DNA of 38,228 nt, taken from NCBI GenBank assembly GCA_029976695.1, contig JARQTN010000004.1, positions 1-38,228 of the forward strand, written 5' to 3'. Source of the DNA: Lewinellaceae bacterium. GTDB lineage: Bacteria > Bacteroidota > Bacteroidia > Chitinophagales > Saprospiraceae. Position numbers and translations under genes: made by a program. The notes under the pieces are model-generated. The model was not told the DNA's origin. It saw only the letters and a program-made list of their open reading frames with translations, and did not search any database. Positions 5,344 to 19,781 of this stretch are shown here, in pieces (position 1 is the first letter of the stretch; the number at the start of each line of letters is the position of its first letter).

Positions 5344-8316
5344 GTGAAAAAATATTCTCTCTACGTATTGCTGATTGTGCTGATCAGTGGTTGCGCAACG
5401 ACCAAAAGCCGCAACGATCAATCAAAATTAGCGCTATTTTACCATAATCTGACGTCCAAATTCAATGGGTACTTCAATGCCAACGAACTCGTTGAGGAAA
5501 GCATCCTGCAACTCAATGAACAGCACGTTGACAATTATAACGAACTTCTCCCTCTCTATGAATATGCAGCTGTAGACAATGCCGATGCCGTAAAGAGCAA
5601 CCTTGACGAGGCGATCAAGAAGGTCTCCGTGGTCGTCACCCTGCACGAATACAGCGACTGGGCCGACGATTGCTACCTCCTGATCGGGCAATCGGAATTC
5701 CTGAAACAGGACTATGAATCTGCCCAGAATGCCCTGGAGTTTTTCATGGATGAATTCAAGCCCAACGGGCAGCGCACGAATATCAAGCCAAGGAAAAAGA
5801 ACGCAAAAAGAGTATCCAAGCAGAAAAGGGCCAAAATTGAAAGCGAGAAGAAGAAACGTTCGGCAAAAGCCGCCAGGGCTTCCAAAAAAGCTGCCAAAGA
5901 GCGCAAACGCTACAACAAAAAGCTGAGGAAACTTCAGAAGCAAAGGCAAAAAGCCCGGAAAAAAGGTAAAAGGATACTTGCTCCAGAGCGGAACAAGCCA
6001 GAAGAAACCAAACCCGGGCAAACAGCACCCGCACCCCCGAAAAAGGATGTGAGTGCACCCAAATCCACGGAGAAAAAGCCTGAAACGGAGAAGGAAAAGA
6101 AACCACAGCCCACTGAAAAGGAAAACGGGATGTTCGGCCACAAGCCGGCTTACCAGGGGGCGATCCTGTGGCTTGCCCGCACGTACATCGAGAGGGAAAA
6201 TTATATCGCGGCAGATTTCAACCTCGTAAAGCTTGAAAAAATGCCTGAGCTGCAGGATGATGTCCTCCGTGAGCTCCCGGTCGTCCGTGCCCAGTACTAC
6301 ATCGAAAGGGGCAATTACGAAGGCGCCATAGAACGGTTGAAGGACGCGGTCGAAATCGCCAACAAGCGAAAAGTAAAGGCCAGGTATACATATATCATGG
6401 GGCAATTGTACCAGATGCTTGGCAACCGGGCTGCCGCCGCCGATGCGTTTGCCGCTGTACTCAAGTTGAGCCCGGATTATGAGATGGAATTCAATGCCAA
6501 CCTGCAAAACCTGATCAGCGGCATTGAAAGTGGGACAATGGCCCATGCTGAAGCGACTTCAAGGCTGAACAAAATGATCAAGGATTTTAAAAACCAGGAG
6601 TACCAGGACCAGTTGTACTTCTCACTTGCCAAAATCGCCCTGAGTGAAAACAACATCCCGCTGGCTATTGAAAACCTGAACCTGAGCATCGAAAGCCCGG
6701 GCCGCAACCCGGCACAAAAGGTAGAGTCCAACTACCTGCTGGCTGAACTGGAATTCAAACGCGAACACTACGTGGAGGCTAAAGCAGCCTTTGACGGAGC
6801 ATTGGGCGGTATGAAGGAAACTGATGAGCGGTACGCCTACACAAAGCTCATGAGTGAGAACCTGACGGATATTGCCCGGCATATCACCACAATCACGGAG
6901 AAAGACAGCCTTCTCCGGATTGCGTTGTTGTCTCCCGGAGAACAGGAAGCATTAGCCAAGGAGATCATCCGCCAACAGGAGGATGCCGCAGACAAGCTTG
7001 CCAAACAATCCGGCTTCAACAAGTCTGCTGCAAAGGGCAGGGGAAATGCGGCGGCCCAGGCCCGTGGCCAGTTCCCAAATGTCCGCAACGTATCATCAGG
7101 TCCGAGTTCATCTTCCTTTTTTGCCTTTGATGAACGGCGTGTTAAAAAAGGAGAACGTGACTTTTCACGCACCTGGGGTGATATCCCTTTGGGCAACCAC
7201 TGGCGGGTACGGAGCAAGGCGCAGGAAATCGCATCTGTAGACGGTGTCGAAGAGGGACTCGTTGTAGAAGAAATCGTGAGTGCAAACGATGTTGAGAACC
7301 TGTTAAAAAATGTTCCCTCTAGCCCCGAGGAAATCGAAGCAGCCCATAGCGATATCCGAAAGGCCATGCTTGCCCTGGGGAGGCTGTACCGGGAAAACCT
7401 TGAGGATTATCCTTCCTCTGCCAAAATCCTGGAGGAACTTGTCACCAACTATCCGGAGGCACCTGAAAAACTGGAGACGTATTATGAGTTGTACCTCACG
7501 TTCACAGCATCCGGCAATATGGCCCGGGCTGAGGTATACAAGCAAAAAATCATAGAAGAATTCCCATCGTCAAAATTTGCAAAGGCCTTATCCGATCCAA
7601 ATTATGCACAGAACCAGCTTTCAGAAAAGCAAAAGCTGACGAACTATTACGATGAGACCTATGCCTATTTCACTTCAGACGACTATCAGAAAGTTAAGGA
7701 GATGATCGATGCCATGCCCGGGCAATTTGGGGCCGGTAACCCGTTGTCTTCAAAATTTGCATTGCTCAACGCATTCAACACGGGTAAATTGGAAGGGCAG
7801 GAAGCTTATACGAACTCCCTCAAGGAGCTCATCGCCAAATTCCCGGGAACCGATGAGGAAAAGAAAGCACGTGACATCCTGCTGCTGTTAGGGGAGTCTA
7901 CGGCAGGAAAAAAATACGGCGCAGAAAACCTCAACAAGGCCAATTTTGTGGCTGATCCGGAAAAACCTCATTTTGTGCTCGTATACATCAAAAACCAGGA
8001 AGAGATCAACCTGAGGGATGCCAAGATCGCGATCGCAAACTATAACAGGCAATATCACAACCTCGACAAAATCCGGATCACGAGCCTGATTTTCAATCCG
8101 GAAACCAAGGAGTCAATCATTTTGCTCAGGTCTTTTCCGGACAAAACCAAAGCCATGGATTACACGGAGGGGATTTCCAGGAAACAAAAGGAATTCTTGC
8201 CCGAGAAGTCTGACTTTATCGCGTATGCAATTACCCAGAACAACTACAGGGAAATCATCAAGGCCAGGTCAATAGACGATTACGAAGACTTTTACAAGCA
8301 GCATTATGGAAAGTAA
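5344..8316 (+). CDS. porW: PorW/SprE-type type IX secretion lipoprotein with TPR repeats
   Basis: A 990-residue periplasmic lipoprotein with lipobox LISGC (Cys17), started by GTG 5344. The segment just after the cysteine, FYHNLTSKFNGYFNANEL, is characteristic of SprE/PorW. Helical tetratricopeptide-like repeats occupy about 80-140, 265-530 and 690-830, and a SPOR-like end follows (about 880-970). In this family the protein connects the type IX secretion motor and ring with the outer-membrane translocon and is needed for secretion and gliding. Residues 149-210 are very rich in Lys and Arg, followed by a Pro/Lys/Glu linker to about 262; this low-complexity insert divides the first TPR block from the rest. 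A PorP/SprF-family gene lies 1.7 kb away. Family call is strong; the exact role here is inferred from the family. Confidence 0.88.
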   Translation: MKKYSLYVLLIVLISGCATTKSRNDQSKLALFYHNLTSKFNGYFNANELVEESILQLNEQHVDNYNELLPLYEYAAVDNADAVKSNLDEAIKKVSVVVTLHEYSDWADDCYLLIGQSEFLKQDYESAQNALEFFMDEFKPNGQRTNIKPRKKNAKRVSKQKRAKIESEKKKRSAKAARASKKAAKERKRYNKKLRKLQKQRQKARKKGKRILAPERNKPEETKPGQTAPAPPKKDVSAPKSTEKKPETEKEKKPQPTEKENGMFGHKPAYQGAILWLARTYIERENYIAADFNLVKLEKMPELQDDVLRELPVVRAQYYIERGNYEGAIERLKDAVEIANKRKVKARYTYIMGQLYQMLGNRAAAADAFAAVLKLSPDYEMEFNANLQNLISGIESGTMAHAEATSRLNKMIKDFKNQEYQDQLYFSLAKIALSENNIPLAIENLNLSIESPGRNPAQKVESNYLLAELEFKREHYVEAKAAFDGALGGMKETDERYAYTKLMSENLTDIARHITTITEKDSLLRIALLSPGEQEALAKEIIRQQEDAADKLAKQSGFNKSAAKGRGNAAAQARGQFPNVRNVSSGPSSSSFFAFDERRVKKGERDFSRTWGDIPLGNHWRVRSKAQEIASVDGVEEGLVVEEIVSANDVENLLKNVPSSPEEIEAAHSDIRKAMLALGRLYRENLEDYPSSAKILEELVTNYPEAPEKLETYYELYLTFTASGNMARAEVYKQKIIEEFPSSKFAKALSDPNYAQNQLSEKQKLTNYYDETYAYFTSDDYQKVKEMIDAMPGQFGAGNPLSSKFALLNAFNTGKLEGQEAYTNSLKELIAKFPGTDEEKKARDILLLLGESTAGKKYGAENLNKANFVADPEKPHFVLVYIKNQEEINLRDAKIAIANYNRQYHNLDKIRITSLIFNPETKESIILLRSFPDKTKAMDYTEGISRKQKEFLPEKSDFIAYAITQNNYREIIKARSIDDYEDFYKQHYGK

Positions 8317-9453: not shown

Positions 9454-9906
9454 TTACGAAATCTTTGAAAGTTTTTCCATCTCGATCGCCTTGGCATCCG
9501 TTTTCGCATGTGAAGATGACTTCATCTTTTGGGATCCCATTTTACAGCTTACGTTAAACGTGGAGCCTGACTGAACGATCAATTTTTTTGTATGGACATC
9601 ACCTTCCACTTTTGCTGTTTCACGCACGTGTAGCAATTCAGTCACAATGACCAGGCCCGAAAATGTACCTTCAATCACCGCGTTTTCACACTGGATATCG
9701 CCATCCACCACACCCGTTGGGCCAATGATGACTTTTCCCTTGCAATCAAGGTTGCCGTGCAGGATCCCGTCTATGCGTATATCTGAACTGGCTTTGATCG
9801 TGCCTTGTATCTCAGTCCCCTGGACAATGCTGTTGCTGCTGCCGGAAACGGCATTCTGGATGTTTGATTTCGCGCTCTTGCTGTCTTTACTTGAATTCCA
9901 CGCCAT
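9454..9906 (-). CDS. Bactofilin (polymer-forming cytoskeletal protein)
   Basis: A 150-residue protein with a Ser/Lys-rich disordered N-terminus (1-30), a right-handed beta-helix core (about 30-125) and a polar C-terminus. The core shows the bactofilin pattern of short repeated strands: IQGTIKASSDIRIDG, HGNLDCKGKVIIGPTG, VVDGDIQCENAVIEG. Bactofilins polymerise without nucleotide and organise envelope growth or motility at the membrane. It is the first gene of a four-gene minus-strand unit and has a recognisable promoter upstream. Start ATG 9906. Confidence 0.9.
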   Translation of the reverse strand: MAWNSSKDSKSAKSNIQNAVSGSSNSIVQGTEIQGTIKASSDIRIDGILHGNLDCKGKVIIGPTGVVDGDIQCENAVIEGTFSGLVIVTELLHVRETAKVEGDVHTKKLIVQSGSTFNVSCKMGSQKMKSSSHAKTDAKAIEMEKLSKIS

Positions 9907-10032: not shown

Positions 10033-11094
10033 TCAGAATTTCGGACAATACACCCCGCGGTTTTCCTGTCCACAAAAATAGTAGATCATGGAAAACTCGA
10101 ATGAGCCATTTGCATTGCTGCCTTGCCTCAAGCTGGATACATTGATGTCATAGCTGAATCCGATACCCCAGTTTGAAACATCATATCGCGATGAAAGGAT
10201 GATGGCATCAGTCAGGATCGGATCTTCGAAATGGTTGGCCAGCCTGATCCAACCTCCCAACTGGAAGGATTGGTCTGAATACCTGCTGGAACCCAGGTTG
10301 AACCTGAAGCTTGTCCCCCCGTTCAGTTCGAAGGATGGCCCCTGGAAGAAAGTCACGATGCCCGGAACAAGGGTGATGTTCCTCGAGAGTGGAAATTCAC
10401 CACCGGCATGGATCACAGTTTTTGTAAAATAGGACACGAGGTCACCTAAACTTTCCCTGAATGAGGATACATTGGCTTGATTGAGGTGATTGAGTGCGGC
10501 CCCGATATAGAAATTGGTATTGTCGTCTAGTACACTGAACCATAAAACGCCAAGTCCAAGGTCGGCAAAAAGGAACCGATCATCAATCAGGTCGAGGTCT
10601 TCACCGGCACCAAGTGTCGGATCGACATCCGTCCCGTTCCAAAAAGTGGACCATTGCGCCTTGGTCAGGTCAAACCCGCGCTGGGAGATTCCCGCTTCTG
10701 CACCGACACTGATATAATGGGCTTTTTTCCTTGAGCCGCCCACGCGTTTGGAGTAGGCACCCAGGAGTTTTCCGGTCAATGTCCCGAAATCAAGGGTTCC
10801 GGCGCGATCATTCCACACATTTGCGCCAAATCCGAAATAGTCATATCTCCCGACTGGCAGCTTCTGGTCATAGGAAACCGAATAGGTGCTGTACGCATCG
10901 TTCTTCAGGATTGGGGACCACTGGTTCCTGTAATTTGCAATGACCCGAGTATTACAATTCATGACTCCGGTAAGTGCCGGGTTCAGGTTTGCCGGATTCA
11001 TGTAGAACTGTGAAAAATGAATGTCCTGTGCGTTTACCCCACCCCACATCATGGCACCGAGGACAAAAAACAAGATTTTGTAATACTTCTGCAT
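10033..11094 (-). CDS. PorP/SprF-family type IX secretion outer-membrane protein
   Basis: A 353-residue protein with a cleavable signal peptide (about residues 1-22, ending GVNAQ) and the family opening DIHFSQFYMNPANLNPALTG. The rest alternates aromatic/polar beta-strands typical of an outer-membrane barrel, ending in YYFCGQENRGVYCPKF. Members are T9SS accessory outer-membrane proteins; SprF is needed for surface delivery of the SprB adhesin, and PorP belongs to the translocon. Bacteroidota genomes often hold several paralogues, and no partner adhesin is adjacent, so I do not decide between PorP and SprF. Single-gene unit; ATG 11094. Confidence 0.88.
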   Translation of the reverse strand: MQKYYKILFFVLGAMMWGGVNAQDIHFSQFYMNPANLNPALTGVMNCNTRVIANYRNQWSPILKNDAYSTYSVSYDQKLPVGRYDYFGFGANVWNDRAGTLDFGTLTGKLLGAYSKRVGGSRKKAHYISVGAEAGISQRGFDLTKAQWSTFWNGTDVDPTLGAGEDLDLIDDRFLFADLGLGVLWFSVLDDNTNFYIGAALNHLNQANVSSFRESLGDLVSYFTKTVIHAGGEFPLSRNITLVPGIVTFFQGPSFELNGGTSFRFNLGSSRYSDQSFQLGGWIRLANHFEDPILTDAIILSSRYDVSNWGIGFSYDINVSSLRQGSNANGSFEFSMIYYFCGQENRGVYCPKF

Positions 11095-11231: not shown

Positions 11232-12323
11232 TTAGGCATTTTCTTCACTTTTCCAGTATGCACCGAATTTTTCAACGAGGACATTGTCATAGGTATCTGC
11301 TTTTTCAAACAGCCTTTCAAATAGCTGTTTCCCGGTTTCGATATTCAGGTACCTGTCATAGATCAGCAGGGAAAGAATGATATCTCTCCCTTTTATGCTG
11401 AATGTCAGTCCCGTAAGTGAAAAATTCTCCCTTAGCAGGAAGGTATAGATTGGCTGGATCTCCTTCCTGGGCAACTGGACAAGGATGGCATCCCCGATGA
11501 TCAACCCGGTCTGTTCGTGGTAGGAGATCCTGATCTGGGCACTTCCCCGATGGACTTCCCATTGGTTTGGGCCCCTCCTGGACAGGTCAACCTCATACCC
11601 AAGCTCTGTCAACAGGTCTTCAATCGTTTTTTTAACTCCTATTGGCTCATAATCCTCCTGCCCTCCAGGTAAAACAAGTTTCGAACCACAATGCGGACAG
11701 TAATTCAATTCGGACTCATACTCAAATACAATATTGGAGCATGATGCACAGCGTGCTCCTTCGGCATTGTTCCCCCTGGAGAAGCCTTTGAGCGTATCAA
11801 GCAAATACTGGTGGGGCAAACTGAACCCGATACTGTTCCCGTCCCTGATAATGAATGTATTGACACCCAGGATCTCGCCCTGGTAATTGATCAGCGGCCC
11901 TCCGCTGTTTCCGGGGTTCAGGGCAGCATCATGCTGGATATAGCGGATATCGTCCTGCTGGTGCAGTGTATTTGAAATAATTCCCTGTGTAGCGGTATAT
12001 TTCAGGCCAAACGGGTGCCCCACAGCCAGTACCTGGTCACCTTCCCGCACCGCCTCCTCCTCAGCAAGGGAAACATCCGGCATTTCATGTTCCCCCGGCG
12101 GCGACAGGAACGCCAGGTCATACTTTTCATCGAGGAATAGTACCCGGGCAAGTTGCTTCTCAAATCCAGCCCCCCCGATCACCACATGCTTGTTCCCCCG
12201 GACCACGTGCTCGTTGGTGATGATCAGGTCATAGCGTGCAAGATAAAAGCCGGTCCCGGTGCTATATGGAGTGGCGATCTGGACAACAACATTCTTGTAT
12301 CTATCTATAACCTGATTCAACAT
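11232..12323 (-). CDS. Trypsin-like serine protease with zinc ribbon and YbjN-like C-terminus, no signal peptide
   Basis: A 363-residue protein. Residues 1-182 are a trypsin-fold protease of the HtrA kind with an apparently complete triad: His39 (TNEHVV), Asp69 (KYDLAF) and Ser140 (NPGNSGGPL). Residues 190-214 hold a zinc ribbon: Cys192, Cys195, Cys209 and Cys212 (CASC, CPHC). The last 140 residues have no PDZ domain and instead resemble the YbjN/CesT chaperone-like fold (pattern around LLRENFSLTGLTFSI). There is no signal peptide or TM helix, so the protein is probably cytoplasmic, unusual for an HtrA-type protease. It starts 3 bp after the stop of the upstream unknown gene, so the two are surely co-transcribed. 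Protease and ribbon are firm; the C-terminal assignment is by eye. Confidence 0.82.
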   Translation of the reverse strand: MLNQVIDRYKNVVVQIATPYSTGTGFYLARYDLIITNEHVVRGNKHVVIGGAGFEKQLARVLFLDEKYDLAFLSPPGEHEMPDVSLAEEEAVREGDQVLAVGHPFGLKYTATQGIISNTLHQQDDIRYIQHDAALNPGNSGGPLINYQGEILGVNTFIIRDGNSIGFSLPHQYLLDTLKGFSRGNNAEGARCASCSNIVFEYESELNYCPHCGSKLVLPGGQEDYEPIGVKKTIEDLLTELGYEVDLSRRGPNQWEVHRGSAQIRISYHEQTGLIIGDAILVQLPRKEIQPIYTFLLRENFSLTGLTFSIKGRDIILSLLIYDRYLNIETGKQLFERLFEKADTYDNVLVEKFGAYWKSEENA

Positions 12324-12326
12324 GGT

Positions 12327-13655
12327 TCAGACTTTTGTGAGATCGAGCTGGCGCAGCATCATCAGGTACGATTTTGCAAATGAATGCCTGGATGAAAAAT
12401 CCAGCAGGGAAAAGTCGGGGCGAAATCTGGGATAGGCCTCCTGATTGTCACGCTGGACCTGGTCAAGTGCCTTTCTGATCGCTTTCCTTTTGAATTTTCC
12501 TGTTTCAGCTTCGTAAAATAGGACTTCGTCACCCAGCAAGCTGAAATAGGCTGATTCCATGACCTGGTAATACAGGTGAAGTAATTGCTTATCCGGCAAT
12601 GGAAGCGCAAAATTGAACAGACAGTATCCGACAATATATCCCGGGATCGAACAGGCGATTTTTTCATACCTGTTCTCCACGTACCAGTCCATATGGTGCA
12701 GTTCGCCGTCTATAAATGCCACAAACTGGTTATGATTTGTCGGGCTGGTGATCCCGAATGTGGAGGAGGTCCGGTACAATTCAGCACTCAGTTCTTCACT
12801 GCTTTTGTTCTTGATCTTCTCCAGTTCCTTCCTGATCTCTGCATTCTTTTCAAGGGTACGCTTATTGCTTTGTGAAAAATACAGCCTGTGGATCCGTTCG
12901 AGTGCCTCCATCGTAGTTCCTTCAGGCTTCACCAGGTAATCCAGTTTGTAACAGGTATCCAGCATGGCATAGGCCACCCCGCCAGCGTATTGCTCATTAT
13001 TGAGTTTGCTCTGGTCAACCGTATCGAACAATTCCTGTATGGCAGCTTGCACAAATGCATATTTGGCATCCTTTTCTTCCACAGGTATTTCCTGGACATG
13101 GCCAATATTCACCGGGTGCAACATGTCAAATTCAGAGATCAGCAAGTCATCCTGCTTGTCCGCATTCACAGCCAGTTCCTTGAAGGCGTAATAGAGTTTG
13201 TAAGGTGACCCGTCCACAAGGTATGAATCGAAAATTAGGGTCAGGTTGTCCTCTCCATCCAGTGCATACCTGCCATACTTCAGGTTGTAATTGAGTTCGA
13301 TCATACGGCGGAGAAAACCGATATTCAGGCTATCAGATGTTGCAATCTTTGCCTCAGCCTTGATCAGGTCATCATTGATGAACCCCGTGATCTTCTTCGA
13401 CCCCTGGAATATTTGAAATGTAAAATGTGCGCCATCCTGTTCCCAGGTGATATTGTCCTGTGCTTCATCATGCAGGTACTGGAAGAACAATGCATAGCTT
13501 TTGGCATAATCACCGGTTTCAAAAGCTTCCAGGCTTTGATCCCACAAGATGTACTTTTCATCTTCCTTGTAAGTATCAGAATATCTCCCAAAAGTTACCG
13601 CCGGATGGGTATCAGATGGCCTGGAAGGACTGAAAAGCTTGTTCAAAAAGTTCAT
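12327..13655 (-). CDS. Protein of unknown function with a YbjN-like domain, partner of the protease
   Basis: A 442-residue soluble protein without signal peptide or TM helix. I do not recognise it as a named family. Residues about 66-172 look like a YbjN/type III chaperone-like domain: strand-rich start, then LRRMIELNYNLKYGRYALD and DNLTLIFDSYL, the pattern in which a helix is followed by a glycine-turn strand pair. A helical middle (180-310) contains a Lys/Glu-rich coiled coil (270-295), and a second mixed region follows (315-440). It is 3 bp upstream of the protease gene and transcribed first. The shared fold and tight linkage suggest the two proteins bind each other or one client. This is inference. 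Confidence 0.7.
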   Translation of the reverse strand: MNFLNKLFSPSRPSDTHPAVTFGRYSDTYKEDEKYILWDQSLEAFETGDYAKSYALFFQYLHDEAQDNITWEQDGAHFTFQIFQGSKKITGFINDDLIKAEAKIATSDSLNIGFLRRMIELNYNLKYGRYALDGEDNLTLIFDSYLVDGSPYKLYYAFKELAVNADKQDDLLISEFDMLHPVNIGHVQEIPVEEKDAKYAFVQAAIQELFDTVDQSKLNNEQYAGGVAYAMLDTCYKLDYLVKPEGTTMEALERIHRLYFSQSNKRTLEKNAEIRKELEKIKNKSSEELSAELYRTSSTFGITSPTNHNQFVAFIDGELHHMDWYVENRYEKIACSIPGYIVGYCLFNFALPLPDKQLLHLYYQVMESAYFSLLGDEVLFYEAETGKFKRKAIRKALDQVQRDNQEAYPRFRPDFSLLDFSSRHSFAKSYLMMLRQLDLTKV

Positions 13656-17765: not shown

Positions 17766-19781
17766 TTAGTTCAAAATATGCACTTCCTTGATCAGGTCCC
17801 CGGCCTGAACCTGCTTCACGACATCCATCCCTTTCTTCACCTTGCCAAAGATCGTATACCGGCCGCTCAAATGCGGTGTTGGCGAATGGGTAATGAAAAA
17901 TTGCGTGCATTCCGTATCCTTCCCGGCGGATGCCATGCCGATATAGCCTTCTTCTTCATAGTACAATGGTGCAAATTCCGAGCGGATAGTATAATCCAGG
18001 CTTCCAAATCCATCACCCCGCGGGCAACCTCCCTGGATCACAAAATTCGGTACCACTCTGTGAAATGATTTCCCGTCATAATATTGATCCTGTACCAGCT
18101 GGATAAAATTCGCCACGGTACCCGGGGCCGCATTCGGATAAAGCTCTGCAAGGATCAATCCCCTTGACGTGATCAGTTCGGCGCCGATCGTGTCGGGGCG
18201 GGACCTGATGAGCGACCAGTCAATTGGATGATTGAATGCCGTTTCTTTCTTCTTGAAAGCAACTCCTTTCAGGAAGCTGATTGTTTCAAGCAAGGCGTTG
18301 TAGGTTTCGATTTCACGCGGAAGTTCAAGACTTGCAAGCGCAGATTCCATGGCCTGGATCTCATCGTTTCCGGGTCTGCCGACCTTGCTATCCGGCGATC
18401 TCAACGCCTCAGCGGCAATGGCTGCAGCCCCGGCATCACCGCTTTCAATAGCCTCCATGAGATAACCGCGCAGCGTGCGCGCCGGGCCGCCAGAGGGGCC
18501 ACCGAGGACATTCCTGAATGAGGGATGTTTGCAGATATCCGCCATCACCTGGACCGTTGCGCTCATGATTACCGCCTCATCCGGATCAAATCCAGTATTC
18601 CAGATCGCCTCATAATTGCGAATATCCTCACCCAGGGCTGAAAGGTAGGCGATCCTCTCTTCCTTTGTCCTGGCAAGCTCAAGATACCGCTCTATTTCGT
18701 TGTTAATATTTGTCTTTGTGATCGTATAGTAGTTTGGCAAGTGTCTGTTTGAGGCTGCATATAACGTGGCTTTTACCGGCCACGGATAATTTTGTTTTGA
18801 CTCTGCACGATAATCAAGGGCATCTGTACGTATTCCTTTTTCCAAAAAGTACGCTGCGGCAAGCATCGCAACTTCCGGATGCCTGCTCTTCAGCAAAGGA
18901 TAGATCTCATGCTTCACCCCGGCATAAGGAAAATTCCTGAGGGCGCGCAGAATATTACACTGCACCCTCGGATCATTCTCCAGGGGTAACCTTTCCAGGA
19001 GGATCTTTTGGGTTGATGGAACCGGCACTTTGCCAAATGCGGCAGCAATAGCCATGCGGATATCAGGATTCCTGTCATTCGCAAAAAGGGGAATCAGTTC
19101 CCGGACAAATGTATCCAACTGGATATCCCGCATACGCATCAGGTAATTTGAAGCCATCACCCTTACTTTTTCGGGGTATGCACGGTCTGTCACATAGCTG
19201 ATCATGGTTGCTGTTCCTTCCGGTGCGACCATTCCCCTCAACCCAAACTGATAGATCCCTCTTGTCTGGCCAAGGACAAGCAGGGTATCCCCTGCCCCAT
19301 ACGTTTTCACGGTTGCCAGTGCGACAAGGGATGATGCCGATCCTACCTTGCCAACAGCCTCCAGGATCCTGCTGTTTGACTCAAGATGCTGCTGTGTCGA
19401 ATCGAACTGGTTAAATGCCTTGATCAGTGCTGGTTCAGCACCTGCGTGTCCGATCTGGCCAATTGCATAAGCGGCCATGGCCCGGACTTCCTCAAATGGA
19501 TCATCCAACAGGCGGATCAGATCATCCAGTGCAGCAGTATCCTGGTAGGATGCAAATGCCCTGGTTGCTGCAAGCCGGTAAGAGGGATTTTCATGGGCCA
19601 GAAAAAAAAGGAGGGAATCCAGGACATGGCGATCCTGGTAGTCCAGGATACGGACAGTCTGGGCATCTGAAAGGTCTATCACCGCCTCAGAATAAAAACG
19701 TTCATCATCTACTGGAACGCAGCTCCAAAGATATGCGACGATGAAAATGACCAGGTATGCCCGGGACTGTTTCCACTTCAT
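17766..19781 (-). CDS. Lipoprotein with HEAT repeats fused to a cyclophilin-type peptidyl-prolyl isomerase
   Basis: A 671-residue protein. An N-terminal hydrophobic segment ends in LWSC (Cys21), a plausible though atypical lipobox with Trp at -2, suggesting a periplasm-facing lipoprotein. Residues about 45-500 are HEAT-like helical pairs such as DDLIRLLDDPFEEVRAMAA and AIGQIGHAGAEPALIKAF. Residues about 525-671 form a cyclophilin domain with FHRVVPNFVIQGG (catalytic Arg), GYIGMASAG, TQFFITHSPTPHLSG and YTIFGKV, so cis/trans isomerase activity is expected. The HEAT part would serve as scaffold or client platform. It lies between the class A PBP gene and gcvT; a role in envelope protein folding is inferred. 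Confidence 0.88.
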   Translation of the reverse strand: MKWKQSRAYLVIFIVAYLWSCVPVDDERFYSEAVIDLSDAQTVRILDYQDRHVLDSLLFFLAHENPSYRLAATRAFASYQDTAALDDLIRLLDDPFEEVRAMAAYAIGQIGHAGAEPALIKAFNQFDSTQQHLESNSRILEAVGKVGSASSLVALATVKTYGAGDTLLVLGQTRGIYQFGLRGMVAPEGTATMISYVTDRAYPEKVRVMASNYLMRMRDIQLDTFVRELIPLFANDRNPDIRMAIAAAFGKVPVPSTQKILLERLPLENDPRVQCNILRALRNFPYAGVKHEIYPLLKSRHPEVAMLAAAYFLEKGIRTDALDYRAESKQNYPWPVKATLYAASNRHLPNYYTITKTNINNEIERYLELARTKEERIAYLSALGEDIRNYEAIWNTGFDPDEAVIMSATVQVMADICKHPSFRNVLGGPSGGPARTLRGYLMEAIESGDAGAAAIAAEALRSPDSKVGRPGNDEIQAMESALASLELPREIETYNALLETISFLKGVAFKKKETAFNHPIDWSLIRSRPDTIGAELITSRGLILAELYPNAAPGTVANFIQLVQDQYYDGKSFHRVVPNFVIQGGCPRGDGFGSLDYTIRSEFAPLYYEEEGYIGMASAGKDTECTQFFITHSPTPHLSGRYTIFGKVKKGMDVVKQVQAGDLIKEVHILN

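Follow-up and report, generated by a model that had tools for sequence, protein, structure and literature searches.

A conserved gene pair of Bacteroidota encoding an HtrA-type protease without a detectable PDZ domain and a partner that carries the same TY-Chap/YbjN-like domain

In the 38,228-nt stretch of a Lewinellaceae bacterium analysed here (contig JARQTN010000004.1; the whole stretch is called the window), two adjacent genes on the minus strand encode an HtrA-type protease (P0001) and a partner protein (P0002), each of which carries a chaperone-like domain of the TY-Chap/YbjN kind. An earlier note on this DNA had proposed a two-gene unit at 11232–13655. Both open reading frames (ORFs) were confirmed, the partner gene (442 aa) running from 13655 to 12327 and the protease gene (363 aa) from 12323 to 11232, with a gap of 3 bases between them. 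The protease comprises an HtrA-type trypsin domain (residues ~1–183), a four-cysteine ribbon (~189–215) and a TY-Chap/YbjN-like C-terminal domain (CTD, ~225–358), and the partner comprises a short N-terminal motif, MNFLNKLFS, a helical hairpin (~32–61), a TY-Chap/YbjN-like domain (~66–182) and a helical half (~190–437). The pairing is conserved well beyond the source genome, and the module is undescribed within the literature searched, as far as its accessible text goes. The pair suggests an undescribed manner of selecting proteins for cleavage inside the cell.

The protease starts directly with the trypsin domain (11775–12323), in which residues 23–154 match Trypsin_2 of Pfam (E 1.8e-27). The catalytic residues H39, D69 and S140 and the cysteines C192, C195, C209 and C212 of the ribbon (11679–11759) were unchanged in 37 of 37 close protease sequences (alignment A3) and in 19 of 19 sequences from two clades with identity down to 28% (alignment A7). 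As the triad and the cysteines are invariant in both alignments, the protease is probably active, and the four cysteines suggest that the ribbon binds zinc. The structure predicted from the 37-row alignment had a mean predicted local distance difference test score (pLDDT) of 89.5 and a predicted template modelling score (pTM) of 0.86, and a fold search matched its residues 1–197 to DegQ and DegP with a Z-score of about 24. Judged by its sequence, the trypsin domain is of the HtrA type. The closest NCBIfam model was that of the Do family (TIGR02037, E 2.6e-43), with 148.5 bits against a cut-off of 416.2.

No PDZ domain was found among the 14 Pfam families matched by the protease at E ≤ 1, nor, at the same threshold, among the 25 families listed of 59 for 19 CTD-bearing members. 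Export was judged by a Kyte–Doolittle hydropathy scan alone (19-residue means, threshold 1.6). The highest mean in P0001 was 1.27, none of the 37 A3 proteases reached 1.6 anywhere, and means in their N-terminal 40 residues did not exceed 1.02; one of the 19 A7 proteases (L068) reached 1.82 from residue 95, within the trypsin domain. The enzyme is therefore predicted not to be exported, in line with the earlier note, which had described it as lacking both a PDZ domain and a signal peptide. Since no PDZ match and no export signal were found and the score lay below the TIGR02037 cut-off, P0001 is not a Do-family HtrA by membership, despite which it likely works like one. The source genome contains four further trypsin-domain genes (frames of 402–606 residues; PDZ was not tested in those), and a single-sequence search of the genome contigs with P0001 gave no confirmed relative.

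The CTD (11250–11651) and the partner domain (13110–13460) can be assigned to the TY-chaperone superfamily on the basis of fold and profile, but score below the Pfam cut-off. A profile built from 33 CTDs matched PDB entry 2plg at E 6e-8; this entry is Tll0839, which PMC5398634 and PMC3575483 count among the YbjN proteins (papers are cited here by PMC number). HHalign aligned the CTD with partner residues ~67–177 (P 4.1e-8) and gave no match with partner residues 200–442. The partner model, based on an 80-row alignment (mean pLDDT 88.8, pTM 0.85), matched 2plg over residues 43–177 with a Z of 14.1, followed by ExsC (3kxy, Z 12.6), chain C of 1xkp from the YopN/SycN–YscB complex (Z 11.1), CesT (Z 10.4) and YbjN (Z 8.8), all confined to residues ~43–185. 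The order of structural elements in the models fitted the TY-Chap/YbjN fold for both domains, the YbjN-fold topology being taken from PMC3575483. Whole-protease fold searches listed only HtrA-type matches, and the CTD fold thus rests on the 2plg profile, the HHalign alignment and the element order, while the partner domain was placed by element order and by the matches to 2plg and YbjN.

The earlier note had put a YbjN/CesT-like fold at the C-terminus of the protease and the same fold at partner residues 66–172, and had expected YbjN matches in both proteins. The fold was found in both, the two folds agree with each other, and the partner domain extends to about residue 182. The expected matches were obtained with relatives or by structure; taken singly, neither P0001 nor P0002 matched any YbjN or TY-Chap model at E ≤ 1, and neither reached the TY-Chap1 cut-off of 27 bits, so that the link of the window proteins to YbjN/TY-Chap emerges solely via relatives or structure. 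Among relatives, TY-Chap1 (PF22551) matched 19 of 30 partners at E ≤ 1, with a best value of 2.1e-6. Four stand-alone TY-Chap1 proteins of 143–170 residues from other families of the phylum (L198–L201) exceed the cut-off of this model.

The distribution of the two genes was followed in 149 genomes of the order and 395 genomes of the phylum. In the order sample, the partner was found in 45 genomes and the CTD in 44, both occurring together in 43. Three genomes did not match: in G100 the protease is present (5.8e-151), adjoining the partner, and was missed through a weak query; in G124 it is interrupted by a contig end; and in G118 the CTD starts at a contig start and a full partner was not found elsewhere in the genome. 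The genes were adjacent in 31 of the 43 genomes, by coordinates read by hand, and apart in 12 (on separate contigs or, in G147, at a distance of 55 kb), so linkage alone cannot account for their co-occurrence. In the phylum sample, where scoring was limited to the 4 or 5 best first-look candidates of each genome and the protease threshold was E ≤ 1e-30, the partner and the full-length protease were found in the same 14 genomes among the candidates scored. The 14 full proteases matched over nearly their whole length at E ≤ 7.6e-84, and the next matches listed had E ≥ 1e-44 and covered the trypsin part only; four more partner matches were stand-alone TY-Chap proteins. The conservation across Bacteroidota that the earlier note had wished to see checked was thus found in the order as well as in the phylum. 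Of the outcomes that the note had listed as refuting its proposal, none occurred, and its interpretation is supported.

An alignment-based search gave 410 named partner relatives, and the best 80 of them are labelled as Saprospiraceae or other Bacteroidota, apart from one labelled simply as a bacterium. Of these loci, 77 had at least 1.2 kb downstream of the partner; the other three had a shorter stretch and were left out, and in one of them (L154) a trypsin ORF can be seen to begin. The protease directly followed the partner in 36 of the 77, with a 4-base overlap in 11 (starts were called mechanically). The cultured organisms with the partner include Phaeodactylibacter xiamenensis and Flavilitoribacter nigricans, in which the stretch next to the partner contains no protease. 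Among 12 loci with distant partners, the protease was found in ten and was adjacent in all ten; the partner stood alone at L070, where a contig end cuts the locus, and at L073. In the source family, the pair was present in 17 of 19 sampled genomes, the source genome included. At one locus, a second ORF of 403 residues with a trypsin-domain match only (L177:7427–8635) lies ~0.4 kb upstream of the partner.

Two loci showed the partner next to a CTD without the protease. In G134, the gene after the partner encodes a stand-alone CTD of ~140 residues without a trypsin domain (L028:1088–1513), and this genome yielded no full-length protease of the type elsewhere. G117 carries three copies of the pair (L033, L206 and L210), two with the protease domain and one in which the partner is accompanied by a stand-alone CTD, also of ~140 residues (L033:2800–3207). 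With TY-Chap1, the stand-alone CTD of L028 scored 21.7 bits and that of L033 had no match (cut-off 27). These loci indicate that the partner and the CTD can persist without the protease domain.

The divergence of the domains was compared by distance correlations in 28 loci, with GSCFA as a single control gene. Length floors had excluded two of 30 loci, L154 with a protease cut at 104 residues and L056 of G134 with the stand-alone CTD, and five pairs of close partners were among the 28. Given GSCFA, the partial correlation between the partner TY-Chap domain and the CTD was 0.68, and none of 1000 permutations was as high. The corresponding values were 0.51 for the partner C-terminus and the CTD, 0.40 for the partner TY-Chap domain and the trypsin domain, and 0.14 for the partner C-terminus and the trypsin domain. 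The trypsin domain stood low with the partner (0.24, and 0.40 with the partner TY-Chap domain), but it tracks the control gene poorly as well, so that these low values do not mark the CTD as the contact. The sequence distances support a connection of the two chaperone domains that goes further than common ancestry and are not proof of contact. Over the same 28 loci, trypsin distances (protease residues 3–183) follow neither the partner nor GSCFA closely, and CTD distances follow both; this poor tracking could stem from recombination or from rapid evolution of a few trypsin domains.

No convincing relative of the partner's C-terminal half appeared among the fold matches listed, which is not proof of a new fold. 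A hydrophobic stretch in this helical half (19-residue mean 1.59 from residue 333) falls, in the model, in a well-predicted helix. A PADLOC match to AbiQ (9.2e-6) at residues 342–419, also in the helical half, was set aside, as no Pfam model supports it, and an NCBIfam arginyltransferase match (E 0.048) and a VpsR match (E 0.43) were judged to be due to chance. At the N-terminus, where P0002 has MNFLNKLFS (13629–13655), a short aromatic-basic motif such as MGLFDRLFG was detected by pattern in 78 of 80 close partners. In a distant clade, a similar motif, for example KKGFFSKLFG, was recognised by eye at the C-terminus of nine of ten partners; partners with the C-terminal motif occur at L066–L074, L196 and L197.

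The specificity of the motif was examined against 1347 ORFs of 120 loci, one of which was duplicated (L036 and L181, same partner, neither of them among the 28 loci compared above). A strict N-terminal pattern was found in 77 ORFs, 76 of them partners (76/120 partners) and one another protein, and the C-terminal pattern in nine ORFs, all partners. The motif is not universal: 18 of 30 partners in the order sample had it, and it was absent at the start of three inspected partners from other families (L190, L192 and L193). It may serve as a membrane or docking anchor, and targeting to the membrane in the manner of FtsY was considered.

Around the partner, the most recurrent neighbours in the 120 loci were GSCFA (53), PorP/SprF (41), bactofilin (34) and a small membrane protein (34), the clusters being named from window members and most others remaining unnamed. 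The recurrence of these genes looks like the synteny of one lineage. In L021, L022, L025 and L034, from another family, a gene that we take to be threonine-aldolase-like stands upstream. The window neighbours scanned were mostly of housekeeping types. On the plus strand, at 5344–8316, the window encodes a 990-residue TPR protein with a lipoprotein-like start, reminiscent of PorW/SprE of the type IX secretion system, and bactofilin (9454–9906) and PorP/SprF (10033–11094) lie near it. A HEAT-repeat protein fused to a cyclophilin-type prolyl isomerase is encoded at 17766–19781 on the minus strand.

HtrA proteases are the textbook case of PDZ-controlled proteolysis and in bacteria act outside the cytoplasm. 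The reading that we tentatively prefer, giving it somewhat less than an even chance, is that the pair forms a cytoplasmic, ATP-independent proteolysis module in which a PDZ-free HtrA-type protease and its partner jointly capture clients through their paralogous chaperone domains. In the protease, the PDZ of an HtrA-type trypsin is replaced by the cysteine ribbon and a domain like class I secretion chaperones and YbjN, and the partner displays the homologous domain on a helical scaffold. The two chaperone domains would associate, probably as a heterodimer similar to SycN–YscB on YopN, and would bind an extended segment of the client. The client would then be brought to the trypsin domain, or the trypsin domain would be unlocked. 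The short aromatic-basic terminus of the partner could dock the pair, possibly at the inner face of the membrane. A protein quality-control or signalling role is the most likely one for such a module. A further-reaching version, which we consider doubtful, would make the pair the prototype of a separate class of HtrA-type protease in the cytoplasm, with the chaperone-domain heterodimer, shared between protease and partner, in place of the PDZ as reader of clients or activating peptides and the partner motif as inner-membrane anchor or tethered peptide ligand.

Counted in favour of joint client capture were the strict co-occurrence, the adjacency, the domain homology, the G134 locus, the partial correlation of 0.68, the invariant triad and cysteines and the published precedents of TY-Chap1, AmyR and DR1245 described below. 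Several observations weigh against it. The genes are apart in the 12 order genomes mentioned above, and no protease stood beside the partner in 41 of the 77 named loci, the remainder of those genomes not having been searched. G134 manages without the protease domain, and catalysis is a prediction from residues. TY-Chap1 matched just 3 of 19 CTD-bearing proteins at E ≤ 1 (best 1.7e-4). The test of co-divergence is weak, coming from one control gene and 28 loci, some near-identical; the raw correlation of the partner with GSCFA (0.77) exceeded that with the protease (0.57), and the CTD correlated with GSCFA at 0.71 and the trypsin domain at 0.19. A 19-residue mean of at least 1.6 occurs in 21 of 80 partners, and although the hydrophobic stretch of P0002 falls in a well-predicted helix of the model, it might conceivably have a membrane role. 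Finally, YbjN proteins have been concluded to act by protein–protein interaction, and functions other than secretion have been suggested for them (PMC5398634).

The partner could instead be a regulator or inhibitor that holds the CTD and blocks the trypsin domain until a signal frees it, which we find unlikely. Chaperones of type III secretion systems (T3SS) take part in anti-activator cascades, such as that of ExsC and ExsE, and the match of the partner fold to ExsC fits this kind of role, as the strict co-occurrence would fit any obligate pair. However, G134 has the partner and a stand-alone CTD but lacks a full protease, leaving nothing to inhibit, and the commonest neighbour clusters also flank the window pair and offer no obvious target, most clusters overall being unnamed.

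It is slightly more unlikely that the CTD and the partner form the true functional unit and act as a chaperone in the assembly of a complex of the membrane or envelope, with the protease domain as a losable clean-up device. Such a unit would agree with the partner accompanied by a stand-alone CTD in G134 and in one of the three G117 copies, with the aromatic-basic motif, with the PorP/SprF neighbours in 41 of 120 loci and with the pairing of CesT/Tir-like chaperones with PspA, for which action at the inner membrane has been proposed (PMC11237479). Nevertheless, every aligned protease has the complete triad (37 of 37 and 19 of 19), and catalysis is hence selected for in nearly all cases, and PorP/SprF looks like lineage synteny because neighbours differ between lineages.

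A defence or conflict system with a cytoplasmic trypsin, similar to Trypco-trypsin/VMAP or to fusions of a reverse transcriptase (RT) and a protease, is improbable. The trypsin domain matched RT-Protease_XI (4e-17) and LmuA (8.9e-6) of PADLOC, and trypsins with frequent small neighbour proteins are known in conflict systems (PMC7159879), a trait shared by the present pair. The RT-Protease matches were limited to the trypsin part, though, the best covering only positions 339–483 of the 506 in the profile, and the reverse transcriptase part had no counterpart in P0001. Pfam gave no Trypco, MoxR or vWA matches in the two proteins or in the 16 window ORFs scanned around them, and no Trypco in 30 partners. 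The 16 window ORFs included no ARG/Macro-type neighbours as in ADPr TY-Chap1 systems, the neighbour clusters of other genomes being mostly unnamed. Since the window neighbours are mostly housekeeping types, a defence role is unlikely, and the recurrence of such neighbours, together with the 17 of 19 family genomes, suggests vertical inheritance. An ordinary exported HtrA whose signal peptide or PDZ was missed through a wrong start or a frameshift is hardly credible: TIGR02037 is its closest NCBIfam model, but the score falls far below the cut-off, there is no N-terminal hydrophobic segment, the same C-terminal domain occurs throughout the 37 A3 sequences, and four other trypsin-domain genes are present in the same genome.

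Among known systems, the Do-family HtrA proteases (DegP, DegQ, DegS, HtrA1/2) share with P0001 the trypsin domain and its triad and differ in their PDZ domains and export, in place of which P0001 has a ribbon and a TY-Chap domain. The TY-Chap1, YbjN and class I T3SS chaperones (PF22551, PF10722; 2plg, ExsC, YbjN, AmyR and DR1245) have the fold of the partner domain and the CTD. TY-Chap1 is a predicted peptide-binding chaperone (PMC9503650), and AmyR and DR1245 form dimers of the YbjN fold (PMC5398634, PMC3575483). The listed solved chaperones of this kind are small, whereas in the present pair it is joined to a protease or to the helical scaffold of the partner. A parallel is DR1245 of Deinococcus, a YbjN-like protein whose homologues often adjoin peptidase genes and for which cooperation with peptidase neighbours in protein degradation was proposed (PMC3575483). 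Those peptidases, an Xaa-Pro dipeptidase and oligoendopeptidase F, are encoded by separate genes, in contrast to the fusion and paralogous partner found here. No description of a trypsin or HtrA protease with a YbjN or TY-Chap domain was found in the accessible open-licence literature, most subscription journals lying outside the search.

If joint client capture is correct, the pair would represent a second way to steer an ATP-independent protease, with the PDZ domain exchanged for a chaperone domain. The YbjN/TY-chaperone domains would in turn gain a direct biochemical readout in the form of cleavage, and one genome that naturally lacks the protease domain allows the division of labour between the two proteins to be tested.

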